NCBI GenBank assembly: GCA_964036045.1
Contig: OZ038380.1
Span: 170,134,245-170,198,244, forward strand
Direction: 5' to 3'
DNA length: 64,000 bases
Source of the DNA: Eutreptiella sp. 'Long Island Sound 2002'
Taxonomy: Eukaryota > Euglenozoa > Euglenophyceae > Eutreptiales > Eutreptiaceae
Shown here: positions 15,526 to 52,629 of the stretch, piece by piece
How positions within the stretch are numbered: the first letter of the stretch is position 1
How the letters are laid out: the number at the start of each line of letters is the position of its first letter
The notes under the pieces: model-generated
Databases searched by the model: none
What the model was told of the DNA's origin: nothing
Seen by the model: only the letters and a program-made list of their open reading frames with translations
Made by a program: the position numbers and the translations under genes

Positions 15526-15621
<96 letters not shown>
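15526..15621 (+). repeat. (AC)n microsatellite, about 48 uninterrupted units
   Basis: Pure alternating AC/CA over 96 bp, preceded by a short imperfect CA-rich lead-in (15,503-15,525). Long TH/TH and CV/CV frames crossing it are artefacts of the repeat. Confidence 0.98.
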
Positions 15622-15622
<1 letters not shown>

Positions 15623-29990: not shown

Positions 29991-30203
29991 TTAGAAATCT
30001 GGCGGCCACTCCAATCCCTCCCTCTCCCTCGTGCACGGTCCATCATGAGCCATGCCCAAAAGCCACATCACATCCTCCTGCAGCACACCACTGTCAGAAG
30101 GTTTACCAGATTGGGGCTGAGACGAAGACGTGGCGGGGAATGGGCATTTGGGGGGTCCAATTGTGCCTACCCCATTCTGAACCGCATGCCACCACTGGCT
30201 CAC
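29991..30203 (-). CDS. Terminal exon or fragment of an unknown protein
   Basis: A minus frame of 70 codons, of which the last 29 residues (EDVMWLLGMAHDGPCTRERE... ending PPDF) have a diverged copy inside the transposon-like element at 28,715. Conservation of residues and stop between copies suggests real coding descent. The N-terminal part of the frame crosses the left edge of the 330-bp array and is probably not genuine. TACCAGATTGGGGCTGAG on the plus strand nearby offers no clear splice site. Family unknown. Confidence 0.35.
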   Translation of the reverse strand: MSQWWHAVQNGVGTIGPPKCPFPATSSSQPQSGKPSDSGVLQEDVMWLLGMAHDGPCTREREGLEWPPDF

Positions 30204-33200
30204 AGTTCACAGCATTCAACGCCCAAATGGGCTTTGGTTGGTGGGTGCAGATGCTGTAAACTGGCCCATACGTTGACATGCACACCGTGGCCAGTCGCAT
30301 GTCAAAGAGCCATGGCCGTACATGGGGTTCACAGCGGTGCAGGAACAACCTGAAATTCCGAAACACGAAGCATTCTGCGAAATACATAGAGAAATGTATT
30401 GCCTTGGATGCAACAGACACAGTTGCACAGCCAGGCCAGGTGCAAGCGGAGAATCAGTTGTGCCACACAGCAAATTGCCGAACAGCATCAAAGTGCCTAC
30501 CCCATTCTGAACCGCATGCCACCACTGGCTCACAGTTCACAGCATTCAACGCCCAGATGGGCTTTGGTTGGTGGGTGCAGATGCTGTAAACTGGCCCATA
30601 CGTTGACATGCACACCGTGGCCAGTCGCATGTCAAAGAGCCATGGCTGTACATGCGGTTCACAGCGATGCAGGAACAACCTGAAATTCCGAAACACGAAG
30701 CATTCTGCGAAATACATAGAGAAATGTATTGCCTTGGATGCAACAGACACAGTTGCACAGCCAGGCCAGGTGCAAGCGGAGAATCAGTTGCGCCACACAG
30801 CAAATTGCCGAACAGCATCAAAGTGCCTACCCAATTCTGAACCGCATGCCACCACTGGCTCACAGTTCACAGCATTCAACGCCCAAATGGGCTTTGGTTG
30901 GTGGGTGCAGATGCTGTAAACTGGCCCATACGTTGACATGCACACCGTGGCCAGTCGCATGTCAAAGAGCCATGGCTGTACATGCGGTTCACAGCGGTGC
31001 AGGAACAACCTGAAATTCCGAAACACGAAGCATTCTGCGAAATACATAGAGAAATGTATTGCCTTGGATGCAACAGACACAGTTGCACAGCCAGGCCAGG
31101 TGCAAGCGGAGAATCAGTTGCGCCACACAGCAAATTGCCGAACAGCATCAAAGTGCCTACCCCATTCTGAACCGCATGCCACCACTGGCTCACAGTTCAC
31201 AGCATTCCCCGCCCAAATGGGCTTTGGTTGGTGGGTGCAGATGCTGTAAACTGGCCCATACGTTGACATGCACACCGTGGCCAGTAGCATGTCAAAGAGC
31301 CATGGCTGTACATGCGGTTCACAGCGGTGCAGGAACAACCTGAAATTCCGAAACACGAAGCATTCTGCGAAATACATAGGGAAATGTATTGCCTTGGATG
31401 CAACAGACACAGTTGCACAGCCAGGCCAGGTGCAAGCGGAGAATCAGTTGCGCCACACAGCAAATTGCCGAACAGCATAAAGGTGCCTACCCCATTCTGA
31501 ACCGCATGCCACCACTGGCTCACAGTTCACAGCATTCCCCGCCCAAATGGGCTTTGGTTGGTGGGTGCAGATGCTGTAAACTGGCCCATACGTTGACATG
31601 CACACCGTGGCCAGTAGCATGTCAAAGAGCCATGGCCGTACATGGGGTTCACAGCGGTGCAGGAACAACCTGAAATTCCGAAACACGAAGCATTCTGCGA
31701 AATACATAGAGAAATGTATTGCCTTGGATGCAACAGACACAGTTGCACAGCCAGGCCAGGTGCAAGCGGAGAATCAGTTGTGCCACACAGCAAATTGCCG
31801 AACAGCATCAAAGTGCCTACCCCATTCTGAACCGCATGCCACCACTGGCTCACAGTTCACAGCATTCCCCGCCCAAATGGGCTTTGGTTGGTGGGTGCAG
31901 ATGCTGTAAACTGGCCCATACGTTGACATGCACACCGTGGCCAGTAGCATGTCAAAGAGCCATGGCCGTACATGCGGTTCACAGCGGTGCAGGAACAACC
32001 TGAAATTCCGAAACACGAAGCATTCTGCGAAATACATAGAGAAATGTATTGCCTTGGATGCAACAGACACAGTTGCACAGCCAGGCCAGGTGCAAGCGGA
32101 GAATCAGTTGCGCCACACAGCAAATTGCCGAACAGCATCAAAGTGCCTACCCCATTCTGAACCGCATGCCACCACTGGCTCACAGTTCACAGCATTCCCC
32201 GCCCAAATGGGCTTTGGTTGGTGGGTGCAGATGCTGTAAACTGGCCCATACGTTGACATGCACACCGTGGCCAGTAGCATGTCAAAGAGCCATGGCCGTA
32301 CATGCGGTTCACAGCGGTGCAGGAACAACCTGAAATTCCGAAACACGAAGCATTCTGCGAAATACATAGAGAAATGTATTGCCTTGGATGCAACAGACAC
32401 AGTTGCACAGCCAGGCCAGGTGCAAGCGGAGAATCAGTTGAGCCACACAGCAAATTGACGAACAGCATACCCCATTCTGAACCGCATGCCACCACTGGCT
32501 CACAGTTCACAGCATTCCCCGCCCAAATGGGCTTTGGTTGGTGGGTGCAGATGCTGTAAACTGGCCCATACGTTGACATGCACACCGTGGCCAGTAGCAT
32601 GTCAAAGAGCCATGGCCGTACATGCGGTTCACAGCGGTGCAGGAACAACCTGAAATTCCGAAACACGAAGCATTCTGCGAAATACATAGAGAAATGTATT
32701 GCCTTGGATGCAACAGACACAGTTGCACAGCCAGGCCAGGTGCAAGCGGAGAATCAGTTGCGCCACACAGCAAATTGCCGAACAGCATAAAAGTGCCTAC
32801 CCCATTCTGAACCGCATGCCACCACTGGCTCACAGTTCACAGCATTCCCCGCCCAAATGGGCTTTGGTTGGTGGGTGCAGATGCTGTAAACTGGCCCATA
32901 CGTTGACATGCACACCGTGGCCAGTAGCATGTCAAAGAGCCATGGCCGTACATGGGGTTCACAGCGGTGCAGGAACAACCTGAAATTCCGAAACACGAAG
33001 CATTCTGCGAAATACATAGAGAAATGTATTGCCTTGGATGCAACAGACACAGTTGCACAGCCAGGCCAGGTGCAAGCGGAGAATCAGTTGTGCCACACAG
33101 CAAATTGCCGAACAGCATCAAAGTGCCTACCCCATTCTGAACCGCATGCCACCACTGGCTCACAGTTCACAGCATTCCCCGCCCAAATGGGCTTTGGTTG

Positions 33201-33914
33201 GTGGGTGCAGATGCTGTAAACTGGCCCATACGTTGACATGCACACCGTGGCCAGTAGCATGTCAAAGAGCCATGGCCGTACATGCGGTTCACAGCGGTGC
33301 AGGAACAACCTGAAATTCCGAAACACGAAGCATTCTGCGAAATACATAGGGAAATGTATTGCCTTGGATGCAACAGACACAGTTGCACAGCCAGGCCAGG
33401 TGCAAGCGGAGAATCAGTTGCGCCACACAGCAAATTGCCGAACAGCATCAAAGTGCCTACCCCATTCTGAACCGCATGCCACCACTGGCTCACAGTTCAC
33501 AGCATTCCCCGCCCAAATGGGCTTTGGTTGGTGGGTGCAGATGCTGTAAACTGGCCCATACGTTGACATGCACACCGTGGCCAGTAGCATGTCAAAGAGC
33601 CATGGCCGTACATGCGGTTCACAGCGGTGCAGGAACAACCTGAAATTCCGAAACACGAAGCATTCTGCGAAATACATAGAGAAATGTATTGCCTTGGATG
33701 CAACAGACACAGTTGCACAGCCAGGCCAGGTGCAAGCGGAGAATCAGTTGAGCCACACAGCAAATTGACGAACAGCATACCCCATTCTGAACCGCATGCC
33801 ACCACTGGCTCACAGTTCACAGCATTCCCCGCCCAAATGGGCTTTGGTTGGTGGGTGCAGATGCTGTAAACTGGCCCATACGTTGACATGCACACCGTGG
33901 CCAGTCGCATGTCA
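30163..33914 (+). repeat. 330-bp tandem array, about 11.4 copies with a 4-unit higher-order period
   Basis: Units (marked by ACCGCATGCC) start at 30,181, 30,511, 30,841, 31,171, 31,501, 31,831, 32,161, 32,481, 32,811, 33,141, 33,471 and 33,791. The last is cut at a C13/G7 tract (33,914 on). Two units are 320 bp because CAAAGTGCCT is missing (about 32,470 and 33,780). Variants recur every fourth unit: TACATGGGG at 30,319, 31,639 and 32,949, and both 10-bp deletions 1,310 bp apart. Because 330 is a multiple of 3, every frame reaches a stop once per unit, giving identical 62-108-codon frames on both strands. A possible symmetric exon in each unit is discussed under findings. Confidence 0.97.
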
Positions 33915-35841: not shown

Positions 35842-35890
35842 GGATTGGCATAGTCCCCACATCAGAGCCCTTGTGAAGCAAAGCCGTGTC
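35842..35890 (-). pseudogene. Relic of an FkbM repeat unit
   Basis: ATTGGCATAGTCCCCACATC, then AGAGCCCTTGTGAAGCAAAG and CCGTG, match the unit sequence at 36,457-36,503 with about three substitutions. On the minus strand it reads RHGFASQGL followed by a stop, where intact units read RHGFASQGLCCGAYAN; a single change turned Cys TGC into TGA. Flanking DNA does not match, so a fragment of the repeat once extended, or was copied, beyond the present array. Confidence 0.8.
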
Positions 35891-36204: not shown

Positions 36205-39200
36205 TTAGACCCCTTGAGCAGACATTGTGAGACCTGTACAATCCCTGGAAACTTCTTGCACATATTTCCAGTACCCAGCTCCGTTCAGCTTGGCGGACTC
36301 CCGCTGCTGAATGATAGCCCTCATGGGCGTTGGCACAGGTTGGCATGGCTTCAATCGGCGTACACCATGACTAACTTGCGGGCGTTGTGCCGATGGATAG
36401 CCCCTGTACCTTCTCGGGAATCGGTTATACGGATAGCGGGTGTTCTGGAAGATTTCATTGGCATAGGCCCCACAGCAGAGCCCTTGCGAAGCAAAGCCGT
36501 GCCTTACAAGCAACTGCCGGATGGCAATGATGACATCATACGGTTGATGCTCCACCTCAATCACAATCACATCCACTGCAATATCCCAATCCATCGTTTC
36601 TAACAGCTTCAATTCGTAGCCCTCAACATCAATGCTGAAGAAATCGATGTGATCAATGCCATGTTGCTTCAACATGGCACCGATGCGCTTGCATGGCACC
36701 TCGATGCTTCCGCCCTGCATCCTGCTGTGTTGTGTAAACTTGTCCCCAAAATCGCCTATGACCCCAGCCGAGGCTGAGCACTTCTTCGCATACGTCACAG
36801 TACCATTGTCGGCATCACAAACTGCTGACTGCACCTTCACTGTGGATGTGCCTGGTCGGTTGGCATCCAGCCGAGGCCAGAACTCCGGGCATCCCTCAAT
36901 CAAGACCCCACTCCAGTGCAAATTCTTTTCAAAAGCAAGAGTGTTGGAATACAATACACCATCGAGAGCACCCACTTCCACAAACACTCCATGAGTCACA
37001 GCCCCTTTCCTGGGGTCATGGAAGAACTCGTCAAAGACAATCTTGTCCTCTCCTTGCTGACTTCTCCACGACCAAGACGATGGATCATCCTTAAATTTGG
37101 GCTGTGTGTTATAACTATTCCCAGACTTTGTGAGACCTGTACAATCCGTAGAAACTTCTTGCACATATTTCCAGTACCCAGCTCCGTTCAGCTTGGCGGA
37201 CTCCCGCTGCTGAATGATAGCCCTCATGGGCGTTGGCACAGGTTGGCATGGCTTCAATCGGCGTACACCATGACTAACTTGCGGGCGTTGTGCCGATGGA
37301 TAGCCCCTGTACCTTCTCGGGAATCGGTTATACGGATAGCGGGTGTTCTGGAAGATTTCATTGGCATAGGCCCCACAGCAGAGCCCTTGCGAAGCAAAGC
37401 CGTGCCTTACAAGCAACTGCCGGATGGCAATGATGACATCATACGGTTGATGCTCCACCTCAATCACAATCACATCCACTGCAATATCCCAATCCATCGT
37501 TTCTAACAGCTTCAATTCGTAGCCCTCAACATCAATGCTGAAGAAATCGATGTGATCAATGCCATGTTGCTTCAACATGGCACCGATGCGCTTGCATGGC
37601 ACCTCGATGCTTCCGCCCTGCATCCTGCTGTGTTGTGTAAACTTGTCCCCAAAATCGCCTATGACCCCAGCCGAGGCTGAGCACTTCTTCGCATACGTCA
37701 CAGTACCATTGTCGGCATCACAAACTGCTGACTGCACCTTCACTGTGGATGTGCCTGGTCGGTTGGCATCCAGCCGAGGCCAGAACTCCGGGCATCCCTC
37801 AATCAAGACCCCACTCCAGTGCAAATTCTTTTCAAAAGCAAGAGTGTTGGAATACAATACACCATCGAGAGCACCCACTTCCACAAACACTCCATGAGTC
37901 ACAGCCCCTTTCCTGGGGTCATGGAAGAACTCGTCAAAGACAATCTTGTCCTCTCCTTGCTGACTTCTCCACAACCAAGACGATGGATCATCCTTAAATT
38001 TGGGCTGTGTGTTATAACTATTCCCAGACTTTGTGAGACCTGTACAATCCGTAGAAACTTCTTGCACATATTTCCAGTACCCAGCTCCGTTCAGCTTGGC
38101 GGACTCTCGCTGCTGAATGATAGCCCTCATGGGCGTTGGCACAGGTTGGCATGGCTTCAATCGGCGTACACCATGACTAACTTGCGGGCGTTGTGCTGAT
38201 GGATAGCCCCTGTACCTTCTCGGGAATCGGTTATACGGATAGCGGGTGTTCTGGAAGATTTCATTGGCATAGGCCCCACAGCAGAGCCCTTGCGAAGCAA
38301 AGCCGTGCCTTACAAGCAACTGCCGGATGGCAATGATGACATCATACGGTTGATGCTCCACCTCAATCACAATCACATCCACTGCAATATCCCAATCCAT
38401 CGTTTCTAACAGCTTCAATTCGTAGCCCTCAACATCAATGCTGAAGAAATCGATGTGATCAATGCCATGTTGCTTCAACATGGCACCGATGCGCTTGCAT
38501 GGCACCTCAATGCTTCCGCCCTGCATCCTGCTGTGTTGTGTAAACTTGTCCCCAAAATCGCCTATGACCCCAGCCGAGGCTGAGCACTTCTTCGCATACG
38601 TCACAGTACCATTGTCGGCATCACAAACTGCTGACTGCACCTTCACTGTGGATGTGCCTGGTCGGTTGGCATCCAGGCGAGGCCAGAACTCCGGGCATCC
38701 CTCAATCAAGACCCCACTCCAGTGCAAATTCTTTTCAAAAGCAAGAGTGTTGGAATACAATACACCATCGAGAGCACCCACTTCCACAAACACTCCATGA
38801 GTCACAGCCCCTTTCCTGGGGTCATGGAAGAACTCGTCAAAGACAATCTTGTCCTCTCCTTGCTGACTTCTCCACGACCAAGACGATGGATCATCCTTAA
38901 ATTTGGGCTGTGTGTTATAACTATTCCCAGACTTTGTGAGACCTGTACAATCCGTAGAAACTTCTTGCACATATTTCCAGTACCCAGCTCCGTTCAGCTT
39001 GGCGGACTCCCGCTGCTGAATGATAGCCCTCACGGGCGTTGGCACAGGTTGGCATGGCTTCAATCGGCGTACACCATGACTAACTTGCGGGCGTTGTGCC
39101 GATGGATAGCCCCTGTACCTTCTCGGGAATCGGTTATACGGATAGCGGGTGTTCTGGAAGATTTCATTGGCATAGGCCCCACAGCAGAGCCCTTGCGAAG

Positions 39201-42200
39201 CAAAGCCGTGCCTTACAAGCAACTGCCGGATGGCAATGATGACATCATACGGTTGATGCTCCACCTCAATCACAATCACATCCACTGCAATATCCCAATC
39301 CATCGTTTCTAACAGCTTCAATTCGTAGCCCTCAACATCAATGCTGAAGAAATCGATGTGATCAATGCCATGTTGCTTCAACATGGCACCGATGCGCTTG
39401 CATGGCACCTCGATGCTTCCGCCCTGCATCCTGCTGTGTTGTGTAAACTTGTCCCCAAAATCGCCTATGACCCCAGCCGAGGCTGAGCACTTCTTCGCAT
39501 ACGTCACAGTACCATTGTCGGCATCACAAACTGCTGACTGCACCTTCACTGTGGATGTGCCTGGTCGGTTGGCATCCAGCCGAGGCCAGAACTCCGGGCA
39601 TCCCTCAATCAAGACCCCACTCCAGTGCAAATTCTTTTCAAAAGCAAGAGTGTTGGAATACAATACACCATCGAGAGCACCCACTTCCACAAACACTCCA
39701 TGAGTCACAGCCCCTTTCCTGGGGTCATGGAAGAACTCGTCAAAGACAATCTTGTCCTCTCCTTGCTGACTTCTCCACAACCAAGACGATGGATCATCCT
39801 TAAATTTGGGCTGTGTGTTATAACTATTCCCAGACTTTGTGAGACCTGTACAATCCGTAGAAACTTCTTGCACATATTTCCAGTACCCAGCTCCGTTCAG
39901 CTTGGCGGACTCTCGCTGCTGAATGATAGCCCTCATGGGCGTTGGCACAGGTTGGCATGGCTTCAATCGGCGTACACCATGACTAACTTGCGGGCGTTGT
40001 GCTGATGGATAGCCCCTGTACCTTCTCGGGAATCGGTTATACGGATAGCGGGTGTTCTGGAAGATTTCATTGGCATAGGCCCCACAGCAGAGCCCTTGCG
40101 AAGCAAAGCCGTGCCTTACAAGCAACTGCCGGATGGCAATGATGACATCATACGGTTGATGCTCCACCTCAATCACAATCACATCCACTGCAATATCCCA
40201 ATCCATCGTTTCTAACAGCTTCAATTCGTAGCCCTCAACATCAATGCTGAAGAAATCGATGTGATCAATGCCATGTTGCTTCAACATGGCACCGATGCGC
40301 TTGCATGGCACCTCAATGCTTCCGCCCTGCATCCTGCTGTGTTGTGTAAACTTGTCCCCAAAATCGCCTATGACCCCAGCCGAGGCTGAGCACTTCTTCG
40401 CATACGTCACAGTACCATTGTCGGCATCACAAACTGCTGACTGCACCTTCACTGTGGATGTGCCTGGTCGGTTGGCATCCAGCCGAGGCCAGAACTCCGG
40501 GCATCCCTCAATCAAGACCCCACTCCAGTGCAAATTCTTTTCAAAAGCAAGAGTGTTGGAATACAATACACCATCGAGAGCACCCACTTCCACAAACACT
40601 CCATGAGTCACAGCCCCTTTCCTGGGGTCATGGAAGAACTCGTCAAAGACAATCTTGTCCTCTCCTTGCTGACTTCTCCACGACCAAGACGATGGATCAT
40701 CCTTAAATTTGGGCTGTGTGTTATAACTATTCCCAGACTTTGTGAGACCTGTACAATCCGTAGAAACTTCTTGCACATATTTCCAGTACCCAGCTCCGTT
40801 CAGCTTGGCGGACTCCCGCTGCTGAATGATAGCCCTCACGGGCGTTGGCACAGGTTGGCATGGCTTCAATCGGCGTACACCATGACTAACTTGCGGGCGT
40901 TGTGCCGATGGATAGCCCCTGTACCTTCTCGGGAATCGGTTATACGGATAGCGGGTGTTCTGGAAGATTTCATTGGCATAGGCCCCACAGCAGAGCCCTT
41001 GCGAAGCAAAGCCGTGCCTTACAAGCAACTGCCGGATGGCAATGATGACATCATACGGTTGATGCTCCACCTCAATCACAATCACATCCACTGCAATATC
41101 CCAATCCATCGTTTCTAACAGCTTCAATTCGTAGCCCTCAACATCAATGCTGAAGAAATCGATGTGATCAATGCCATGTTGCTTCAACATGGCACCGATG
41201 CGCTTGCATGGCACCTCGATGCTTCCGCCCTGCATCCTGCTGTGTTGTGTAAACTTGTCCCCAAAATCGCCTATGACCCCAGCCGAGGCTGAGCACTTCT
41301 TCGCATACGTCACAGTACCATTGTCGGCATCACAAACTGCTGACTGCACCTTCACTGTGGATGTGCCTGGTCGGTTGGCATCCAGCCGAGGCCAGAACTC
41401 CGGGCATCCCTCAATCAAGACCCCACTCCAGTGCAAATTCTTTTCAAAAGCAAGAGTGTTGGAATACAATACACCATCGAGAGCACCCACTTCCACAAAC
41501 ACTCCATGAGTCACAGCCCCTTTCCTGGGGTCATGGAAGAACTCGTCAAAGACAATCTTGTCCTCTCCTTGCTGACTTCTCCACAACCAAGACGATGGAT
41601 CATCCTTAAATTTGGGCTGTGTGTTATAACTATTCCCAGACTTTGTGAGACCTGTACAATCCGTAGAAACTTCTTGCACATATTTCCAGTACCCAGCTCC
41701 GTTCAGCTTGGCGGACTCTCGCTGCTGAATGATAGCCCTCATGGGCGTTGGCACAGGTTGGCATGGCTTCAATCGGCGTACACCATGACTAACTTGCGGG
41801 CGTTGTGCTGATGGATAGCCCCTGTACCTTCTCGGGAATCGGTTATACGGATAGCGGGTGTTCTGGAAGATTTCATTGGCATAGGCCCCACAGCAGAGCC
41901 CTTGCGAAGCAAAGCCGTGCCTTACAAGCAACTGCCGGATGGCAATGATGACATCATACGGTTGATGCTCCACCTCAATCACAATCACATCCACTGCAAT
42001 ATCCCAATCCATCGTTTCTAACAGCTTCAATTCGTAGCCCTCAACATCAATGCTGAAGAAATCGATGTGATCAATGCCATGTTGCTTCAACATGGCACCG
42101 ATGCGCTTGCATGGCACCTCAATGCTTCCGCCCTGCATCCTGCTGTGTTGTGTAAACTTGTCCCCAAAATCGCCTATGACCCCAGCCGAGGCTGAGCACT

Positions 42201-45200
42201 TCTTCGCATACGTCACAGTACCATTGTCGGCATCACAAACTGCTGACTGCACCTTCACTGTGGATGTGCCTGGTCGGTTGGCATCCAGCCGAGGCCAGAA
42301 CTCCGGGCATCCCTCAATCAAGACCCCACTCCAGTGCAAATTCTTTTCAAAAGCAAGAGTGTTGGAATACAATACACCATCGAGAGCACCCACTTCCACA
42401 AACACTCCATGAGTCACAGCCCCTTTCCTGGGGTCATGGAAGAACTCGTCAAAGACAATCTTGTCCTCTCCTTGCTGACTTCTCCACGACCAAGACGATG
42501 GATCATCCTTAAATTTGGGCTGTGTGTTATAACTATTCCCAGACTTTGTGAGACCTGTACAATCCCTGGAAACTTCTTGCACATATTTCCAGTACCCAGC
42601 TCCGTTCAGCTTGGCGGACTCCCGCTGCTGAATGATAGCCCTCATGGGCGTTGGCACAGGTTGGCATGGCTTCAATCGGCGTACACCATGACTAACTTGC
42701 GGGCGTTGTGCCGATGGATAGCCCCTGTACCTTCTCGGGAATCGGTGATACGGATAGCGGGTGTTCTGGAAGATTTCATTGGCATAGGCCCCACAGCAGA
42801 GCCCTTGCGAAGCAAAGCCGTGCCTTACAAGCAACTGCCGGATGGCAATGATGACATCATACGGTTGATGCTCCACCTCAATCACAATCACATCCACTGC
42901 AATATCCCAATCCATCGTTTCTAACAGCTTCAATTCGTAGCCCTCAACATCAATGCTGAAGAAATCGATGTGATCAATGCCATGTTGCTTCAACATGGCA
43001 CCGATGCGCTTGCATGGCACCTCGATGCTTCCGCCCTGCATCCTGCTGTGTTGTGTAAACTTGTCCCCAAAATCGCCTATGACCCCAGCCGAGGCTGAGC
43101 ACTTCTTCGCATACGTCACAGTACCATTGTCGGCATCACAAACTGCTGACTGCACCTTCACTGTAGATGTGCCTGGTCGGTTGGCATCCAGCCGAGGCCA
43201 GAACTCCGGGCATCCCTCAATCAAGACCCCACTCCAGTGCAAATTCTTTTCAAAAGCAAGAGTGTTGGAATACAATACACCATCGAGAGCACCCACTTCC
43301 ACAAACACTCCATGAGTCACAGCCCCTTTCCTGGGGTCATGGAAGAACTCGTCAAAGACAATCTTGTCCTCTCCTTGCTGACTTCTCCACAACCAAGACG
43401 ATGGATCATCCTTAAATTTGGGCTGTGTGTTATAACTATTCCCAGACTTTGTGAGACCTGTACAATCCGTAGAAACTTCTTGCACATATTTCCAGTACCC
43501 AGCTCCGTTCAGCTTGGCGGACTCTCGCTGCTGAATGATAGCCCTCATGGGCGTTGGCACAGGTTGGCATGGCTTCAATCGGCGTACACCATGACTAACT
43601 TGCGGGCGTTGTGCCGATGGATAGCCCCTGTACCTTCTCGGGAATCGGTTATACGGATAGCGGGTGTTCTGGAAGATTTCATTGGCATAGGCCCCACAGC
43701 AGAGCCCTTGCGAAGCAAAGCCGTGCCTTACAAGCAACTGCCGGATGGCAATGATGACATCATACGGTTGATGCTCCACCTCAATCACAATCACATCCAC
43801 TGCAATATCCCAATCCATCGTTTCTAACAGCTTCAATTCGTAGCCCTCAACATCAATGCTGAAGAAATCGATGTGATCAATGCCATGTTGCTTCAACATG
43901 GCACCGATGCGCTTGCATGGCACCTCAATGCTTCCGCCCTGCATCCTGCTGTGTTGTGTGAACTTGTCCCCAAAATCGCCTATGACCCCAGCCGAGGCTG
44001 AGCACTTCTTCGCATACGTCACAGTACCATTGTCGGCATCACAAACTGCTGACTGCACCTTCACTGTAGATGTGCCTGGTCGGTTGGCATCCAGCCGAGG
44101 CCAGAACTCCGGGCATCCCTCAATCAAGACCCCACTCCAGTGCAAATTCTTTTCAAAAGCAAGAGTGTTGGAATACAATACACCATCGAGAGCACCCACT
44201 TCCACAAACACTCCATGAGTCACAGCCCCTTTCCTGGGGTCATGGAAGAACTCGTCAAAGACAACCTTGTCCTCTCCTTGCTGACTTCTCCACGACCAAG
44301 ACGATGGATCATCCTTAAATTTGGGCTGTGTGTTATAACTATTCCCAGACTTTGTGAGACCTGTACAATCCGTAGAAACTTCTTGCACATATTTCCAGTA
44401 CCCAGCTCCGTTCAGCTTGGCGGACTCTCGCTGCTGAATGATAGCCCTCATGGGCGTTGGCACAGGTTGGCATGGCTTCAATCGGCGTACACCATGACTA
44501 ACTTGCGGGCGTTGTGCTGATGGATAGCCCCTGTACCTTCTCGGGAATCGGTTATACGGATAGCGGGTGTTCTGGAAGATTTCATTGGCATAGGCCCCAC
44601 AGCAGAGCCCTTGCGAAGCAAAGCCGTGCCTTACAAGCAACTGCCGGATGGCAATGATGACATCATACGGTTGATGCTCCACCTCAATCACAATCACATC
44701 CACTGCAATATCCCAATCCATCGTTTCTAACAGCTTCAATTCGTAGCCCTCAACATCAATGCTGAAGAAATCGATGTGATCAATGCCATGTTGCTTCAAC
44801 ATGGCACCGATGCGCTTGCATGGCACCTCAATGCTTCCGCCCTGCATCCTGCTGTGTTGTGTAAACTTGTCCCCAAAATCGCCTATGACCCCAGCCGAGG
44901 CTGAGCACTTCTTCGCATACGTCACAGTACCATTGTCGGCATCACAAACTGCTGACTGCACCTTCACTGTGGATGTGCCTGGTCGGTTGGCATCCAGCCG
45001 AGGCCAGAACTCCGGGCATCCCTCAATCAAGACCCCACTCCAGTGCAAATTCTTTTCAAAAGCAAGAGTGTTGGAATACAATACACCATCGAGAGCACCC
45101 ACTTCCACAAACACTCCATGAGTCACAGCCCCTTTCCTGGGGTCATGGAAGAACTCGTCAAAGACAACCTTGTCCTCTCCTTGCTGACTTCTCCACGACC

Positions 45201-47991
45201 AAGACGATGGATCATCCTTAAATTTGGGCTGTGTGTTATAACTATTCCCAGACTTTGTGAGACCTGTACAATCCGTAGAAACTTCTTGCACATATTTCCA
45301 GTACCCAGCTCCGTTCAGCTTGGCGGACTCTCGCTGCTGAATGATAGCCCTCATGGGCGTTGGCACAGGTTGGCATGGCTTCAATCGGCGTACACCATGA
45401 CTAAGTTGTGGGCGTTGTGCCGATGGATAGCCCCTGTACCTTCTCGGGAATCGGTGATACGGATAGCGGGTGTTCTGGAAGATTTCATTGGCATAGGCCC
45501 CACAGCAGAGCCCTTGCGAAGCAAAGCCGTGCCTTACAAGCAACTGCCGGATGGCAATGATGACATCATACGGTTGATGCTCCACCTCAATCACAATCAC
45601 ATCCACTGCAATATCCCAATCCATCGTTTCTAACAGCTTCAATTCGTAGCCCTCAACATCAATGCTGAAGAAATCGATGTGATCAATGCCATGTTGCTTC
45701 AACATGGCACCGATGCGCTTGCATGGCACCTCAATGCTTCCGCCCTGCATCCTGCTGTGTTGTGTAAACTTGTCCCCAAAATCGCCTATGACCCCAGCCG
45801 AGGCTGAGCACTTCTTCGCATACGTCACAGTACCATTGTCGGCATCACAAACTGCTGACTGCACCTTCACTGTGGATGTGCCTGGTCGGTTGGCATCCAG
45901 CCGAGGCCAGAACTCCGGGCATCCCTCAATCAAGACCCCACTCCAGTGCAAATTCTTTTCAAAAGCAAGAGTGTTGGAATACAATACACCATCGAGAGCA
46001 CCCACTTCCACAAACACTCCATGAGTCACAGCCCCTTTCCTGGGGTCATGGAAGAACTCGTCAAAGACAATCTTGTCCTCTCCTTGCTGACTTCTCCACG
46101 ACCAAGACGATGGATCATCCTTAAATTTGGGCTGTGTGTTATAACTATTCCCAGACTTTGTGAGACCTGTACAATCCGTAGAAACTTCTTGCACATATTT
46201 CCAGTACCCAGCTCCGTTCAGCTTGGCGGACTCCCGCTGCTGAATGATAGCCCTCATGGGCGTTGGCACAGGTTGGCATGGCTTCAATCGGCGTACACCA
46301 TGACTAACTTGCGGGCGTTGTGCCGATGGATAGCCCCTGTACCTTCTCGGGAATCGGTGATACGGATAGCGGGTGTTCTGGAAGATTTCATTGGCATAGG
46401 CCCCACAGCAGAGCCCTTGCGAAGCAAAGCCGTGCCTTACAAGCAACTGCCGGATGGCAATGATGACATCATACGGTTGATGCTCCACCTCAATCACAAT
46501 CACATCCACTGCAATATCCCAATCCATCGTTTCTAACAGCTTCAATTCGTAGCCCTCAACATCAATGCTGAAGAAATCGATGTGATCAATGCCATGTTGC
46601 TTCAACATGGCACCGATGCGCTTGCATGGCACCTCGATGCTTCCGCCCTGCATCCTGCTGTGTTGTGTGAACTTGTCCCCAAAATCGCCTATGACCCCAG
46701 CCGAGGCTGAGCACTTCTTCGCATACGTCACAGTACCATTGTCGGCATCACAAACTGCTGACTGCACCTTCACTGTAGATGTGCCTGGTCGGTTGGCATC
46801 CAGCCGAGGCCAGAACTCCGGGCATCCCTCAATCAAGACCCCACTCCAGTGCAAATTCTTTTCAAAAGCAAGAGTGTTGGAATACAATACACCATCGAGA
46901 GCACCCACTTCCACAAACACTCCATGAGTCACAGCCCCTTTCCTGGGGTCATGGAAGAACTCGTCAAAGACAACCTTGTCCTCTCCTTGCTGACTTCTCC
47001 ACGACCAAGACGATGGATCATCCTTAAATTTGGGCTGTGTGTTATAACTATTCCCAGACTTTGTGAGACCTGTACAATCCGTAGAAACTTCTTGCACATA
47101 TTTCCAGTACCCAGCTCCGTTCAGCTTGGCGGACTCTCGCTGCTGAATGATAGCCCTCATGGGCGTTGGCACAGGTTGGCATGGCTTCAATCGGCGTACA
47201 CCATGACTAACTTGCGGGCGTTGTGCTGATGGATAGCCCCTGTACCTTCTCGGGAATCGGTTATACGGATAGCGGGTGTTCTGGAAGATTTCATTGGCAT
47301 AGGCCCCACAGCAGAGCCCTTGCGAAGCAAAGCCGTGCCTTACAAGCAACTGCCGGATGGCAATGATGACATCATACGGTTGATGCTCCACCTCAATCAC
47401 AATCACATCCACTGCAATATCCCAATCCATCGTTTCTAACAGCTTCAATTCGTAGCCCTCAACATCAATGCTGAAGAAATCGATGTGATCAATGCCATGT
47501 TGCTTCAACATGGCACCGATGCGCTTGCATGGCACCTCGATGCTTCCGCCCTGCATCCTGCTGTGTTGTGTGAACTTGTCCCCAAAATCGCCTATGACCC
47601 CAGCCGAGGCTGAGCACTTCTTCGCATACGTCACAGTACCATTGTCGGCATCACAAACTGCTGACTGCACCTTCACTGTAGATGTGCCTGGTCGGTTGGC
47701 ATCCAGCCGAGGCCAGAACTCCGGGCATCCCTCAATCAAGACCCCACTCCAGTGCAAATTCTTTTCAAAAGCAAGAGTGTTGGAATACAATACACCATCG
47801 AGAGCACCCACTTCCACAAACACTCCATGAGTCACAGCCCCTTTCCTGGGGTCATGGAAGAACTCGTCAAAGACAATCTTGTCCTCTCCTTGCTGACTTC
47901 TCCACAACCAAGACGATGGATCGATCGGACTCTCTGCAGCTCTGGCTGTGATAACAAGCATCCATACCCACAACCAGATTTGTCTGTGCAT
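36205..47991 (-). CDS. Giant secretory protein of 13 tandem FkbM-type methyltransferase domains
   Basis: A single 3,928-residue frame without introns. Residues 1-18 (MHRQIWLWVWMLVITARA) form a signal peptide, with cleavage likely near ARA-AES. From residue 25, a 301-residue unit repeats 13 times. Each unit has the FkbM SAM-binding motif FVEVGALDGVLYSNTLAFE (58-76 in unit 1) and the family signature FFSIDVEGYELKLLE (172-186), a possible N-glycosylation site DNGT, several Cys, and a basic linker (RFPRRYRGYP...VRRLKP). FkbM enzymes are SAM-dependent methyltransferases, often O-methylating sugars or polyketides; the target here is unknown. Units differ at only a few residues (SSWSW/SSWLW, DKIV/DKVV, YNRF/YHRF, PMRA/PVRA). 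The last unit ends SRDCTGLTMSAQGV before TAA. No transmembrane segment or ER-retention signal is seen. The start Met at 47,991 directly precedes the signal peptide. Confidence 0.9.
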   Translation of the reverse strand: MHRQIWLWVWMLVITARAAESPIDPSSWLWRSQQGEDKIVFDEFFHDPRKGAVTHGVFVEVGALDGVLYSNTLAFEKNLHWSGVLIEGCPEFWPRLDANRPGTSTVKVQSAVCDADNGTVTYAKKCSASAGVIGDFGDKFTQHSRMQGGSIEVPCKRIGAMLKQHGIDHIDFFSIDVEGYELKLLETMDWDIAVDVIVIEVEHQPYDVIIAIRQLLVRHGFASQGLCCGAYANEIFQNTRYPYNRFPRRYRGYPSAQRPQVSHGVRRLKPCQPVPTPMRAIIQQRESAKLNGAGYWKYVQEVSTDCTGLTKSGNSYNTQPKFKDDPSSWSWRSQQGEDKVVFDEFFHDPRKGAVTHGVFVEVGALDGVLYSNTLAFEKNLHWSGVLIEGCPEFWPRLDANRPGTSTVKVQSAVCDADNGTVTYAKKCSASAGVIGDFGDKFTQHSRMQGGSIEVPCKRIGAMLKQHGIDHIDFFSIDVEGYELKLLETMDWDIAVDVIVIEVEHQPYDVIIAIRQLLVRHGFASQGLCCGAYANEIFQNTRYPYHRFPRRYRGYPSAQRPQVSHGVRRLKPCQPVPTPMRAIIQQRESAKLNGAGYWKYVQEVSTDCTGLTKSGNSYNTQPKFKDDPSSWSWRSQQGEDKIVFDEFFHDPRKGAVTHGVFVEVGALDGVLYSNTLAFEKNLHWSGVLIEGCPEFWPRLDANRPGTSTVKVQSAVCDADNGTVTYAKKCSASAGVIGDFGDKFTQHSRMQGGSIEVPCKRIGAMLKQHGIDHIDFFSIDVEGYELKLLETMDWDIAVDVIVIEVEHQPYDVIIAIRQLLVRHGFASQGLCCGAYANEIFQNTRYPYHRFPRRYRGYPSAQRPQLSHGVRRLKPCQPVPTPMRAIIQQRESAKLNGAGYWKYVQEVSTDCTGLTKSGNSYNTQPKFKDDPSSWSWRSQQGEDKVVFDEFFHDPRKGAVTHGVFVEVGALDGVLYSNTLAFEKNLHWSGVLIEGCPEFWPRLDANRPGTSTVKVQSAVCDADNGTVTYAKKCSASAGVIGDFGDKFTQHSRMQGGSIEVPCKRIGAMLKQHGIDHIDFFSIDVEGYELKLLETMDWDIAVDVIVIEVEHQPYDVIIAIRQLLVRHGFASQGLCCGAYANEIFQNTRYPYNRFPRRYRGYPSAQRPQVSHGVRRLKPCQPVPTPMRAIIQQRESAKLNGAGYWKYVQEVSTDCTGLTKSGNSYNTQPKFKDDPSSWSWRSQQGEDKVVFDEFFHDPRKGAVTHGVFVEVGALDGVLYSNTLAFEKNLHWSGVLIEGCPEFWPRLDANRPGTSTVKVQSAVCDADNGTVTYAKKCSASAGVIGDFGDKFTQHSRMQGGSIEVPCKRIGAMLKQHGIDHIDFFSIDVEGYELKLLETMDWDIAVDVIVIEVEHQPYDVIIAIRQLLVRHGFASQGLCCGAYANEIFQNTRYPYNRFPRRYRGYPSAQRPQVSHGVRRLKPCQPVPTPMRAIIQQRESAKLNGAGYWKYVQEVSTDCTGLTKSGNSYNTQPKFKDDPSSWLWRSQQGEDKIVFDEFFHDPRKGAVTHGVFVEVGALDGVLYSNTLAFEKNLHWSGVLIEGCPEFWPRLDANRPGTSTVKVQSAVCDADNGTVTYAKKCSASAGVIGDFGDKFTQHSRMQGGSIEVPCKRIGAMLKQHGIDHIDFFSIDVEGYELKLLETMDWDIAVDVIVIEVEHQPYDVIIAIRQLLVRHGFASQGLCCGAYANEIFQNTRYPYHRFPRRYRGYPSAQRPQVSHGVRRLKPCQPVPTPMRAIIQQRESAKLNGAGYWKYVQEVSRDCTGLTKSGNSYNTQPKFKDDPSSWSWRSQQGEDKIVFDEFFHDPRKGAVTHGVFVEVGALDGVLYSNTLAFEKNLHWSGVLIEGCPEFWPRLDANRPGTSTVKVQSAVCDADNGTVTYAKKCSASAGVIGDFGDKFTQHSRMQGGSIEVPCKRIGAMLKQHGIDHIDFFSIDVEGYELKLLETMDWDIAVDVIVIEVEHQPYDVIIAIRQLLVRHGFASQGLCCGAYANEIFQNTRYPYNRFPRRYRGYPSAQRPQVSHGVRRLKPCQPVPTPMRAIIQQRESAKLNGAGYWKYVQEVSTDCTGLTKSGNSYNTQPKFKDDPSSWLWRSQQGEDKIVFDEFFHDPRKGAVTHGVFVEVGALDGVLYSNTLAFEKNLHWSGVLIEGCPEFWPRLDANRPGTSTVKVQSAVCDADNGTVTYAKKCSASAGVIGDFGDKFTQHSRMQGGSIEVPCKRIGAMLKQHGIDHIDFFSIDVEGYELKLLETMDWDIAVDVIVIEVEHQPYDVIIAIRQLLVRHGFASQGLCCGAYANEIFQNTRYPYNRFPRRYRGYPSAQRPQVSHGVRRLKPCQPVPTPVRAIIQQRESAKLNGAGYWKYVQEVSTDCTGLTKSGNSYNTQPKFKDDPSSWSWRSQQGEDKIVFDEFFHDPRKGAVTHGVFVEVGALDGVLYSNTLAFEKNLHWSGVLIEGCPEFWPRLDANRPGTSTVKVQSAVCDADNGTVTYAKKCSASAGVIGDFGDKFTQHSRMQGGSIEVPCKRIGAMLKQHGIDHIDFFSIDVEGYELKLLETMDWDIAVDVIVIEVEHQPYDVIIAIRQLLVRHGFASQGLCCGAYANEIFQNTRYPYNRFPRRYRGYPSAQRPQVSHGVRRLKPCQPVPTPMRAIIQQRESAKLNGAGYWKYVQEVSTDCTGLTKSGNSYNTQPKFKDDPSSWLWRSQQGEDKIVFDEFFHDPRKGAVTHGVFVEVGALDGVLYSNTLAFEKNLHWSGVLIEGCPEFWPRLDANRPGTSTVKVQSAVCDADNGTVTYAKKCSASAGVIGDFGDKFTQHSRMQGGSIEVPCKRIGAMLKQHGIDHIDFFSIDVEGYELKLLETMDWDIAVDVIVIEVEHQPYDVIIAIRQLLVRHGFASQGLCCGAYANEIFQNTRYPYNRFPRRYRGYPSAQRPQVSHGVRRLKPCQPVPTPVRAIIQQRESAKLNGAGYWKYVQEVSTDCTGLTKSGNSYNTQPKFKDDPSSWSWRSQQGEDKIVFDEFFHDPRKGAVTHGVFVEVGALDGVLYSNTLAFEKNLHWSGVLIEGCPEFWPRLDANRPGTSTVKVQSAVCDADNGTVTYAKKCSASAGVIGDFGDKFTQHSRMQGGSIEVPCKRIGAMLKQHGIDHIDFFSIDVEGYELKLLETMDWDIAVDVIVIEVEHQPYDVIIAIRQLLVRHGFASQGLCCGAYANEIFQNTRYPYNRFPRRYRGYPSAQRPQVSHGVRRLKPCQPVPTPMRAIIQQRESAKLNGAGYWKYVQEVSTDCTGLTKSGNSYNTQPKFKDDPSSWLWRSQQGEDKIVFDEFFHDPRKGAVTHGVFVEVGALDGVLYSNTLAFEKNLHWSGVLIEGCPEFWPRLDANRPGTSTVKVQSAVCDADNGTVTYAKKCSASAGVIGDFGDKFTQHSRMQGGSIEVPCKRIGAMLKQHGIDHIDFFSIDVEGYELKLLETMDWDIAVDVIVIEVEHQPYDVIIAIRQLLVRHGFASQGLCCGAYANEIFQNTRYPYNRFPRRYRGYPSAQRPQVSHGVRRLKPCQPVPTPMRAIIQQRESAKLNGAGYWKYVQEVSTDCTGLTKSGNSYNTQPKFKDDPSSWSWRSQQGEDKIVFDEFFHDPRKGAVTHGVFVEVGALDGVLYSNTLAFEKNLHWSGVLIEGCPEFWPRLDANRPGTSTVKVQSAVCDADNGTVTYAKKCSASAGVIGDFGDKFTQHSRMQGGSIEVPCKRIGAMLKQHGIDHIDFFSIDVEGYELKLLETMDWDIAVDVIVIEVEHQPYDVIIAIRQLLVRHGFASQGLCCGAYANEIFQNTRYPYNRFPRRYRGYPSAQRPQVSHGVRRLKPCQPVPTPMRAIIQQRESAKLNGAGYWKYVQEVSRDCTGLTMSAQGV
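36220..47929 (-). repeat. 903-bp coding tandem array, 13 units, partly dimeric (1,806 bp)
   Basis: Adjacent units are nearly identical at DNA level and all are in phase (903 = 3 x 301). The boundaries are sharp: left of 36,220 (AGACATTGTGAG) and right of 47,929 (GATGGATC then GATCGG) the similarity stops. Marker bases alternate between neighbours from about 37.1 to 44.3 kb: CACGACC/CACAACC, ACTCCCGC/ACTCTCGC and CCTCGATG/CCTCAATG. The rare CACGGGCG variant occurs at 39,031 and 40,837, exactly 1,806 bp apart. This is the pattern left by unequal exchange of two-unit blocks. Confidence 0.97.
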
Positions 47992-48229
47992 GGTACTGCA
48001 CCTGTGTGTTGGTATTCCAAAGCCGATCTACAGGGACCCATGGCCAACGTGGAAGCTGCATTGATCTGCAGACGGCAGCAGAAAAGAAACCATCCTGCAT
48101 TGATGTGGTGAATAACAGTCATAGAGGGGTCTTGCAATGTGCAGGTGTGCCATGTTTGCAAGTATGGGATGTGCGTCATGTGCAGGCAACCTGTGCATAG
48201 CACAGAGAGAAAATCAGAAGCGGCTACTT
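47992..48229 (-). promoter_or_regulatory. Upstream region of the FkbM array gene
   Basis: About 240 bp between the start codon and the satellite-like block, which must hold the 5' UTR and perhaps the core promoter. I do not see a convincing TATA box or initiator. Listed as the only candidate space. Confidence 0.25.
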
Positions 48230-49072
48230 AAGCCCGCGGCCTGAGGGGCCGAAATCTGAGATGAATGGCTGTATAATCCCCACCTTCTCGGGGACCCCTA
48301 GTGGTCAACACGGGCAGAAAAGTAGTCGTGACTAATTATGCCCGCCGTCTCAAGGGGCCAAATGAAAATTGAAAAACGGCAACGTAATCCCTTCCTTCTT
48401 GGGCGTACCCAGTGCTCAACATGAGGAGAAAATCAGAATGGGCCCACAGGTGGGCAAGATGGCTACATGGCCCTACCTGCTCGGGGTCCTTGATGCTCGG
48501 TACGGGGAGAAAATCAGAAGTGGCCTACATGCAGACAAAGATGGCTTCGTAACCTCTGCCTTCTCAGGGGTCCCTAGTGCCCAAAATCAGGGAAGAAAAT
48601 CAGAAGTGGCCACTTAAGCTCGCTGTCCCACGGGCCCAAATCTGAGAAAAATGGCTACATAACTCTTGCCTTCTGGGAGGTCCTGAGTGCTCAGCATGGA
48701 GAGAAAATCAGATGTGGCCCACATGTGGGCAAAGATGGTTACATAACCGCTTCATAGTCGGGGGTTCCCGATGCTCAGCTCGGGAAAAACATCACCCATG
48801 GCCCACATGTGGGCACGATGGCTACATAACCCCTGCCTTCTCGGCGGTCCCTAGTGAGAAAATCAGAAGTGGCCCACTTGTGGGCAACATGAACGCTGCC
48901 TTCCCGAGGGTCCCTAGTGATCAAAATGGGGGGGGGGGGGATCAGCGGTGGGCACATGTGGGCAAGATGGCCGCATAACATCTCCCATCTCCCTAGGTCC
49001 CGTGGTCCCAGCAGGAAGGGGGGGGGGGGGGGATAGAAATGGCCCAATTGTGGGCAAGATGGCTGGATTGAC
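48230..49072 (+). repeat. Degenerate satellite-like block 1
   Basis: Seven or more imperfect units of about 85-125 bp with the core GCCCACATGTGGGCAAGATG, GCTACATAACCCCTGCC, TTCTCGGGGGTCCCTAGTGC, TCAGCACGGGGAGAAAATCA, GAAGTGG. GCCCACATGTGGGC is a perfect 14-bp palindrome repeated through the block. G-tracts are embedded at 48,927 and 49,019. No coding frame is sustained. Confidence 0.9.
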
Positions 49073-49620
49073 TGCAGAAGTTCATAGAGTACTCAAGACC
49101 GTTCTTGGAAACATGGGCGGCTCCGGCACATGATACAGTGGATCCCCGCAATGTGGGGCACGTGGCAAAGACCTAGAGTTCATACGCGTATACCAGAGAG
49201 CTCTCTAGTGCGCTAGGCGACCGCCACGCCCGTAGGCAACCTGTAAAGTGAGTAACCGCATGGTTTGCAAAAGCGGAGCACAAGAATACTGCAACACAAC
49301 TGCAACAGAATACGGTCCCTTAACCGGGCTGACATTGCAGAGGGGCGCCTTGAGCTGTAAGTGCCGGATACTGTAGCGGCGAGGGAGGGGAACAGTATGG
49401 AGGCTACCTTGCAGGCATCGCCGCAGACCCCGAGGGGTCACAGCATCGGCTATTGAGCTGCCGACACGGGTCCTGTAGGGTAACAGCCACGTTTCCGACG
49501 TTGCCTGCCTGGAGCATTGTCCGGAGGCATGTGCCTAGTATGCTTGGTCTAGTGCGGCACTGGTGCTTGGGGAAAGGTGATTCCACCCTATGGTCCGTGC
49601 GTTATGACGCCCACAACCGG
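49073..49620. other. Unassigned insert between satellite blocks
   Basis: About 550 bp not matching the satellite core. Short frames only, with no motif recognised and no terminal repeats found. It may be a fragment of a mobile element. Confidence 0.4.
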
Positions 49621-50665
49621 CCCATCACGGAATTGTGGCAATTGTCGGCAAGATGGCCCCATAACCCTTGCCTTCTTGGGCACCCCCAGTGCTCAACATT
49701 GGGAGGACCTCACAGGTGGCCAACACTTGGTAACCTCTACTTTCTTGGGGCTCCCCAATGCTCAGCATGGGGAGAAAAGCGAGAATGGCCCAGTTTTCGT
49801 CCCGAGGGCCCAAATTTGGAAAAGAGGCTACATAACCGCTTCCTTCTTGGCCGTAGTGCCAAATATGGGGAGATACAATCAATACTATCCCACAGGCAAG
49901 ATGGCTACATAACCTCTGCCTTCTTGGGCATCCCTAGTGCTTGGCATGGGGTGTACCTTAGAGGTGGCCGACATGTGGGCAAGATGAACACTGCTTTTAC
50001 GAGTGCCCCCAGTGCTCAATAGGGGGAGAAAATCAGAGGTGGCCCCCATGAGAGAAAAATGGCCCCTTCCTTCTAGGGGGTCTTGAGTCCTCACAAGGGG
50101 GGGAAAATAAGAAGGCGCTACTGAACTCCGCCGTGTCAAGGCCAAAATCTGGGAACATGGCTGCATAACCCCTTCCTTCTTGGGGGTTCCTAGTGCTCAG
50201 TACGGGGAGAACATCGGGGGTGGCCCACACTTGGGCAAGATGGCTCCATAACCCCTGCCTTCTTGGGGGTCCGTAGTGGTCGGCACGGGGAGACAATCAT
50301 AAGTGGCCCACATGTGGGCATCATCGCCACCTAACCCTTGCCTTTTCCAGGGAGCTTAGTACTTAGCATGGGGAGGAGATCACAGGTAGCTATATGACCC
50401 CTGCCTTCTCGGAAGTCCCTAGTGCTCAGCACGGCAGAATATGGGCAAAGATGGCTACATGAACCTTGCTTTTTCTGGGGTCCTAAATGCCGAGCACGGG
50501 GAGAGAATCAGAAGTGGCAACTTCAGCTCGTTGTCTCGCGGGTCCAAATTTGAGGAAAATGGCAACATAACCCCAACCTTCTCGGGGTCCCTAGTGCTCA
50601 GCACAGGGAGAAAATCGGAACTTGCCCACATGTGGGCAAAGATGGCTACATAACCCTCGCCTTTT
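49621..50665 (+). repeat. Degenerate satellite-like block 2
   Basis: The same family resumes (AAGATGGC, CATAACC, CCTTGCCTTCTTGGG, CCCCAGTGCTCAACATTGGG). About ten diverged units of variable length, several missing the CACATGTG palindrome. Confidence 0.9.
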
Positions 50666-51169
50666 TGTTTTGTATTCCGACACTGGTAAGTTCTGCCGAC
50701 AGGCAACAGTGTGTGTAGGAGCAATGGCCTAGGAGTATGTACAGTCAGAAAGGCTTAGCCACTGGAGTGTATACGGACGAGGTATTCCCCTAGAACCCAT
50801 GGAATCCAGCGGGGGCGCCTGCCCATTTAATACTGCACATTGTATGCAGGAGGTGAGACCTGCCACGACCCTGGGGGTCCACACCTGAACTGAAGAAATT
50901 GACGGAAAGACAAAACAAAAGAAAACTAGGGCATGAAACACAGGAAGTAATCGCACGGAGTTGAAAAACTCACATGTTTCTTGAACTGCACACGGGGGTG
51001 GCCTCATGAAGGTCAAGTCGCACCCCACGGCGACCCAGTTGGTTGTATGACAGAATCATCACATGACTCCTAGACAGATGATCCTGTGAGCTGAATAACA
51101 TGGGAGGGGTGCACGTCAGTGCGTCGCCTCTTTGGTGTATGTGGGTCGGTGCCTTGCGAGCGGCGGCGT
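50666..51169. other. Unassigned DNA between satellite and LINE relic
   Basis: A minus frame of 99 codons (50,729-51,028) lies on the same strand as the following retroelement-like frames and may be part of it, but no motif is clear. Confidence 0.35.
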
Positions 51170-52040
51170 TTCAGTGGCAGCACCGGGAGCTGTGCCCTCT
51201 ATGCTTCCAGGTATTTTTTTCTTTCACGCCAGGGCACCTCCTCCCAGTGTTTTGTGAGGGTGGCCCGGTGGACCCACCGTTGGTCCACATGATAAGCTGT
51301 GTGCGCACCAGCACTCTGAAAAATAGGCACGCCGCAAAGATGCCGCTTCTTCCCACAAAGCCCGGGTAAAGGATAGTAATACATCTTGCCACATAGCAAA
51401 TGTGTCACGGGCAGCCCTTCGAGGAAACATGGTAAAAATCCTCCACAGAGGTCATCGACCTACGAAGCCAGTGTTCATGCCCTCGCACATAGTACACACA
51501 CATCGTTGCCCACGCCACGTAATTTCTGGTAAGACACCGAGACCATATGCAGGGCGGCCCCGCCCATAGTAGAGACTTGTCCTGGGTATACTCCCCGCAA
51601 CACGTGGATCAAGGAGTGTGTTGATGTGTGCGACGGGGTAAAGGAATAGAAAGCAAGCAGGTTTGTGGCCATCCTCTCTTTGCGGTGGGGAGTACGGCTG
51701 CAAAAGGAGCCAGTCCACCCGTTCCTCTGGAGGCCGGGCCGGGCGCCTGCGTCCCGGGGGTTTTTTCTTTGGCATAGGGGCCCGGTAGTGTACCTGTGAG
51801 CGCAGAGTGCTGTCGCTTGGATTGGGCTGGACCGCTCGGCGGCGGAGGGCAGTGTACCACACCGGAGTGCTATGAGACGGGGTATGCTTTGTGTTGTCCG
51901 CCACCTTGGGGGGCATAGGGAGGGACTGACGCATGAGTATGACAGCATGGGCCATGTGGTACTGATGCCAGGCGGCTCTATATCTAAGTGCGTGCAGCCT
52001 GTCACGGGGTACAGTGTCAATGAAGGACTGTGGGACACGC
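51170..52040 (-). pseudogene. Possible LINE relic (zinc-knuckle region downstream of reverse transcriptase)
   Basis: Overlapping minus frames give pieces such as RGQRCVCTMCEGMNTGFVGR (C-x2-C), then RRAARDTFAMWQDVLLSFTR and ALWEEAASLRRAYFSECW. The layout (a C-x2-C, a later W-x-D/V helix and Trp-rich segments) resembles the zf-RVT region found between reverse transcriptase and RNase H in non-LTR elements. There are several frame breaks. The catalytic reverse transcriptase motif (F/Y-x-D-D) was not found. The call is tentative. Confidence 0.3.
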
Positions 52041-52629
52041 CGTTTGGAGATGTGGTCTAAGTCCTCTGCGGAGGCCGTAGAAACCTAGTATTGGGCTAAA
52101 TCACTCCAGGTGTCCCATGTGCGTAACCCTACATAACCCTCGCCTTTTAGGAGGTCCGCAATGCGGTGCACGAGGAATAATAAGAAGTGCCCACTTAGGG
52201 GGAATCCTTGCACTGCGCACGCACTACGCATGGAGTGCACACGCATTGTGCGCTACCCTTAGACTAGATTCGCCCCAAAGAGCCCCCAAATACGCCCCTT
52301 CCATACACCCTTAAAATCAGGCGACTCCAACTATCCTAGCCCTGGGGGGGCAAAGTAGCCGAGGGGTACAAAAATTGCAATCTGACATTGAAACCATTCC
52401 CCCTTTTTTTCAGTGAAAAATGTTGCACTCAAGCTTGATGAGTTTTACTTCACTAAAGCTGGTGTGTGTTGGAATTCCTTGTACCTAAACATGGTGTTCT
52501 GACACAATATCACACAATGATGTCACCCATCTAACATCAACGTCACACGTGCATGCCACACTCTTCATCTTCTCTTCAAAATCCCTGTTGGTTGAGTAGT
52601 GGAGGGACCGATGGAATATGTGTCAATAT
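52041..52629. other. No supported gene; short satellite fragment at about 52,120-52,200
   Basis: CTACATAACCCTCGCCTTTT, AGGAGGTCCGCAATGC shows one satellite-family unit. The rest has no recognisable structure. Confidence 0.5.

Follow-up and report, generated by a model that had tools for sequence, protein, structure and literature searches.

A single open frame with 13 FkbM units

In a 64,000-nucleotide stretch of DNA from Eutreptiella sp. 'Long Island Sound 2002' (contig OZ038380.1, positions 170,134,245 to 170,198,244; hereafter the window, numbered from its first letter), we observed one open frame that encodes a signal-peptide-like start followed by 13 near-identical units of the FkbM methyltransferase family. 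The frame lies on the minus strand, begins with ATG and ends with a TAA stop codon, and its predicted product has a mass of 441 kDa, 104 cysteines and 13 N-glycosylation sequons. The remaining five frames across the same interval carry 44 to 220 stops apiece and, as the next longest open reading frame (ORF) of the window has just 690 amino acids (aa), the length of the frame is far beyond chance. Among all ORFs of at least 30 codons in the window, this frame alone matched the FkbM profile. An earlier note on this DNA, made from the letters only, had claimed one 3,928-codon frame with a single signal peptide and 13 near-identical units of 301 residues, every unit keeping both FkbM motifs. We confirm this frame, to which we add the strand, and its units, except that the last one is shorter. 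The parts of the frame are:

36205..47991, minus strand: single open frame of 3,928 codons and a stop codon, coding for the signal-peptide-like start and the 13 FkbM units (ORF list, translation, Pfam)
47938..47991, minus strand: residues 1-18, predicted as a signal peptide with cleavage at A-R-A (sequence and hydropathy)
47020..47922, minus strand: unit 1, 301 aa, linker at its C-end
47020..47061, minus strand: linker ending unit 1, unit residues 288-301, predicted local distance difference test score (pLDDT) under 50; units 2-12 end in the same DNA (unit model, sequence)
46117..47019, minus strand: unit 2, modelled by AlphaFold2
45214..46116, minus strand: unit 3
44311..45213, minus strand: unit 4
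43408..44310, minus strand: unit 5
42505..43407, minus strand: unit 6, two 3'-end variants common to unit 13 only
41602..42504, minus strand: unit 7, identical to unit 9
40699..41601, minus strand: unit 8, identical to unit 10
39796..40698, minus strand: unit 9
38893..39795, minus strand: unit 10
37990..38892, minus strand: unit 11, differing from units 7 and 9 by a single base
37087..37989, minus strand: unit 12, differing from units 8 and 10 by a single base
36205..37086, minus strand: unit 13, terminal, with an MSAQGV tail and stop in place of the linker

Residues 1-23 comprise the signal-peptide-like stretch and a short spacer, after which unit 1 begins. The N-terminus (MHRQIWLWVWMLVITARA/AE) is hydrophobic and has an A-x-A site; judged by hydropathy and the -3/-1 rule of signal-peptide cleavage, the start is supported as signal-peptide-like. 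The 13 unit starts (DPSSW) are spaced by exactly 301 codons, and unit 13 has 293 codons up to the stop. FVEVGALDG and SIDVEGYE occur 13 times each, the motifs and cysteines are intact in 13/13 units, and the linker is identical in all 12 copies. The internal units contain no stop, and the first in-frame Met is codon 123 in every one of the 13 units. Thus, whole monomers cannot be translated separately, which leaves three options: the frame yields a single chain, it yields a polyprotein that is cleaved, or it is silent. A tandem array of separate genes is ruled out, as no stop, spacer and in-frame start lie between units. The unit aligns with single-domain relatives, which is consistent with the absence of introns stated in the earlier note.

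The units are predicted methyltransferases of a cysteine-rich clade

PF05050 matched the chain in 13 stretches (896.5 bits for the whole chain, cut-off 22.7), and a single unit scored 43.4 against TIGR01444 (cut-off 37.7). The AlphaFold2 model of unit 2, made from this one unit, had a pLDDT of 92.9 and was confident except for the ~14-residue linker (residues 288-301, pLDDT <50). The predicted fold of the unit is that of a class I S-adenosylmethionine (SAM)-dependent methyltransferase, like the solved FkbM structure; a sequence search of the PDB gave no match. Four other Pfam names (aldo/keto reductase, RseA_C, FAD_binding_5 and GLTT) were rejected, being weak matches summed over 13 copies with no single stretch that passed.

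Sequence comparison places the unit in a cysteine-rich FkbM clade, which is probably secretory and glycan-modifying. The closest protein, P0002, is 63% identical and has one FkbM domain. In a distant relative, P0049, FkbM is fused to glycosyltransferase 61 (GT61). The C-terminal extension of P0047 was considered as a glycosyltransferase and not used: it was modelled at low confidence, and neither it nor the extension of P0046 had a Pfam match above the cut-off.

The array arose by recent amplification

Over their first 860 positions, the 13 units have 14 variable sites and no indel, and any two units differ at no more than 9 of the 860 bases. Two pairs of units are identical (7/9 and 8/10), and units 7-12 are one dimer in three copies. 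The divergence of at most ~1%, the identical pairs and the dimer duplications clearly support a recent amplification. The dimer pattern is plain only in units 7-12; over the whole array, dimer periodicity was not significant (lag-2 P=0.066). The earlier note took the intact motifs to mean selection or very recent amplification; the amplification stands, while selection is no more than hinted at, as described below.

The repeated span starts shortly after the signal peptide and ends close to the C-terminus, and ~35 bp of linker are absent at both edges. Unit 13 diverges from the other units near position 868, and we saw no evident similarity between the sequence upstream of unit 1 and that upstream of unit 2. 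We infer one founding in-frame duplication, followed by unequal exchange. Outside the frame, the sole unit-like sequence found is a short relic, and a second, non-coding array lies 2.3 kb away:

35844..35888, minus strand: 45-bp unit relic, 93% identical, with an in-frame stop, ~320 bp beyond the stop codon (similarity to unit)
30163-33914: 330-bp units in tandem, 11.4 copies with 98% matches, each of the six frames interrupted by stops (repeat search)

The presence of this non-coding array, in which 2 of 11 units carry a 10-bp indel class, indicates that the region amplifies readily.

The copy number could be an assembly product, in which case fewer units would be real and mis-assembly would have made unit 7 identical to unit 9 and unit 8 identical to unit 10. 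The identical pairs and the threefold dimer of units 7-12 would fit such an error. However, units 11 and 12 are each one base off the other dimers, other units have variants of their own, and unique sequence is present at both array edges. In addition, the contig in the sequence collection searched measures 774,910 bases, a length that suggests assembly from long reads; we consider this explanation very improbable.

A proposed secreted chain of methyltransferase beads

The explanation that we find best as a whole, and to which we give an even chance, is that a duplicated FkbM gene became a secreted 13-bead O-methyltransferase chain. In this scenario, a microbial eukaryote would have had an FkbM O-methyltransferase gene of the cysteine-rich kind with one domain. 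The part of it between the signal peptide and the vicinity of the C-terminus would have been duplicated once in frame, and unequal exchange, in blocks of one or two units, would later have brought the number of units to 13. As the internal units have neither a stop nor a usable start, the frame would be usable only as one message. If expressed, the chain would enter the endoplasmic reticulum through its single signal peptide, may form disulfides there, and would fold into a string of 13 independent beads, each a SAM-dependent methyltransferase, joined by flexible linkers. The beads would O-methylate the sugars of polysaccharides or glycoproteins, either along the secretory pathway or on the cell surface, and the many sites may increase enzyme dose and avidity. 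A candidate splice site lies upstream of the frame and could serve as a 3' acceptor, in cis or in trans:

48066..48089, minus strand: pyrimidine-rich tract with CTGCAG at its end, 74 nt 5' of the start codon, putative 3' splice acceptor (sequence only)

We favour glycans as the substrate because of the FkbM-GT61 fusion in P0049, the Ostreococcus FkbM gene that lies close to sugar genes and was proposed for glycan methylation (PMC5082852), and the O-methyl mannose present on algal N-glycans (PMC12507850). In plants, Golgi SAM transporters are known (PMC9946043, PMC12881853). In the two searched texts on O-methylated N-glycans the word 'methyltransferase' was not found, and the cysteine-rich FkbM clade is therefore a testable candidate for an N-glycan O-methylation enzyme. 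A more specific proposal is that the 441-kDa chain functions uncleaved, in the lumen or outside the cell, as an enzyme whose 13 near-identical sites O-methylate glycans and are connected by flexible linkers. Its copy number would be tuned by unequal exchange, by which surface-glycan methylation could change quickly, e.g. against viruses or grazers; this we think unlikely.

Selection, codon usage and a neutral alternative

Among the 14 variable sites, 6 nonsynonymous and 8 synonymous changes were present, whereas random placement would give 10:4 (10.06 nonsynonymous); the observed proportion is ~0.29 times the expected one. The deficit of nonsynonymous changes (P=0.020, or 0.023 when the direction of change is ignored) hints at constraint on the units. 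Is the array nevertheless neutral? A coding macrosatellite, i.e. a tandem array that expanded recently within repeat-prone DNA, is silent or barely expressed, and is open only through its youth and a unit length that is a multiple of three, is an explanation that we regard as rather unlikely. The low divergence and the dimer duplications agree with it, and the 330-bp array of similar style shows such an expansion with stops in all six frames. On the other hand, neutrality is at odds with the nonsynonymous deficit, with the match that the unit still gives to its enzyme clade, and with the motifs and cysteines kept in every unit.

A number of points weigh against a functional secreted chain. The selection test is one-sided, has n=14 and counts each site as one event, and the six amino-acid changes sit at variable columns of the clade, although the sites are too few to say much. 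Because only 0.44 stops are expected from 14 substitutions at the array's young age (probability of no stop 0.63), as the macrosatellite explanation would have it, the open frame adds little evidence of selection. Likewise, in the non-coding 330-bp array 16 substituted columns come with just one indel class. Zero indels in 14 sites are therefore unremarkable, and the argument for selection from the absence of indels was dropped. The GC content at third codon positions (GC3) of the units is 0.56, close to the local non-coding GC of 0.50-0.55, compared with 0.95 in the clear neighbouring flavin oxidoreductase gene (11765-13627), the one reference gene on which this comparison rests; this too agrees with a macrosatellite. 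This apparent mismatch with the codon usage of the host points to weak expression or to a gene that arrived recently. Two out-of-frame ATGs lie within the 74 nt from the possible splice acceptor to the start codon. Moreover, the copy number comes from one assembly, and the literature searched yielded no substrate data for the cysteine-rich FkbM clade.

A possible processed polyprotein

The chain might also be cut at its linkers into 13 single enzymes, like the Euglena RuBisCO small-subunit and the dinoflagellate RuBisCO and light-harvesting polyproteins, with which it shares its plan (PMC4938576, PMC3747160, PMC4351107). One N-terminal targeting signal with whole domains repeated behind it is compatible with processing, as is a short linker that does not vary between its copies and is disordered in the unit model. 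However, the linker (TKSGNSYNTQPKFKD) has no dibasic site, this being the one cleavage motif examined, while each domain contains five dibasic pairs (residues 26, 101, 133, 225 and 243). The dinoflagellate spliced leader had no match in the window within 3 substitutions of the full motif; four matches to its 15-base core only were found (≤3 substitutions). We consider cleavage into single enzymes improbable.

Searches for other repeated FkbM chains

The earlier note had proposed a search for proteins with repeated FkbM domains. Our protein searches (E up to 1e-5) required shared short words or patterns, so that less similar FkbM repeats could escape. They gave 44 matches of 953 candidates at ~178-567 aa, 5 of 1,460 at 564-1795 aa, and, with words from residues 1-1300, 1 of 4,521 at 2160-6874 aa, which was the window's own chain. 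Thus, no other repeated FkbM chain was found among proteins of ~178-1795 and 2160-6874 aa; lengths of 1796-2159 aa were not covered. When 8 of the 49 database matches (P0002, P0003, P0010 and P0046-P0050) were rescanned with Pfam, each had one FkbM stretch. Among 62 profile-matching ORFs in 55 loci, 57 had one stretch and five had two, and in four of these five the pieces look like one split domain. The sole hint of a two-domain FkbM chain in these loci is a 454-aa ORF of a Buchananbacteria metagenome-assembled genome (L042, from position 4917 onward), with a full FkbM stretch and a weak second one (24 bits). Literature searches on FkbM with tandem, polyprotein or architecture terms gave no repeated FkbM chain among the entries listed.

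Viral and prokaryotic relatives reached at most 36% identity over >100 residues, and 44% in short matches to part of the sequence. Unit 1, when scanned directly against the viral and the prokaryotic collection, had no relative in either. A viral model in BFVD matches at 31% identity, and algal viruses are reported to carry FkbM genes (PMC12085832). An old viral link is thus conceivable. The idea that the array sits within a mobile element or a viral island was rejected: the 2.3-2.4 kb flanks have no common terminal repeats except homopolymers and matches of at most 12 bases.

Surroundings of the array

The window contains no tRNA and no Rfam match. Its sparse coding and its minisatellites, together with the secretory features of the frame, point to a eukaryotic host. 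Its other features are:

11765-13627, minus strand: single-ORF flavin oxidoreductase (PF01593 and PF13450, GC3 0.95, hydrophobic start), presumably of the carotenoid-isomerase/retinol-saturase type
15507-15635: long (AC)n microsatellite, 65.5 copies
21717-22874, minus strand: 385-aa ORF with no Pfam match and a whole-ORF GC3 of 0.77; at 21849-22502 its codon choice resembles that of the oxidoreductase gene
27951-28258 and 29009-29181: minisatellites with ten-base units, GGAATTATGG and CCCATAATTC, mutual reverse complements up to rotation, ~750 bp apart
48208-53327: degenerate ~80-bp repeats with a palindromic GCCCACATGTGGGC core, recurring upstream of the frame
55305-55808, minus strand: ORF with an RNase H domain (PF00075), probably of retroelement origin

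Comparison with known systems

If the chain is made, we know of no enzyme domain that is repeated more often in a single chain, and in the protein and literature searches described here it would be the first FkbM protein with repeated domains. The chain would extend the multi-unit polyprotein plan, known for Euglena and dinoflagellate plastid proteins, to an enzyme of the secretory pathway, and it would offer a natural copy-number system in which to ask whether enzyme multivalency or dose is selected.

With the FkbM family (PF05050, TIGR01444) the units share the domain, the SAM motifs and the predicted fold, but each of the eight rescanned relatives has one FkbM domain (one of them with GT61), whereas here there are 13 per chain. 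The earlier note called this architecture unlike any known; as a kind, it does have parallels. The Euglena RuBisCO small-subunit polyprotein has 8 units and decapeptide linkers (PMC4938576). Both systems have one targeting sequence (here by hydropathy), many units in one frame, and short linkers outside the fold (here residues 288-301, by the one-unit model). They differ in that the Euglena protein is a small subunit in the plastid stroma with reported cleavage, while the chain described here has 13 units of an enzyme domain and would enter the secretory pathway. In dinoflagellates, form II RuBisCO (PMC3747160) and light-harvesting complex polyproteins (PMC4351107) likewise repeat enzyme or antenna units within a message, and the spacer of the Prorocentrum RuBisCO is 21 residues long; the dinoflagellate RuBisCO, however, has 3 to 4 units and is plastid-targeted. 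Nematode polyprotein allergens are also large, tandemly repetitive polyproteins of near-identical units, but these units are small, lipid-binding and cleaved, and are not enzymes (PMC3079579). Dinoflagellate tandem gene arrays resemble the 13-unit frame in having similar copies in tandem, and differ from it in the stop, spacer and start between copies (PMC2488372). By this comparison, we regard the 13-unit FkbM chain as a new example of the repeated-unit polyprotein plan, with an unusual layout.
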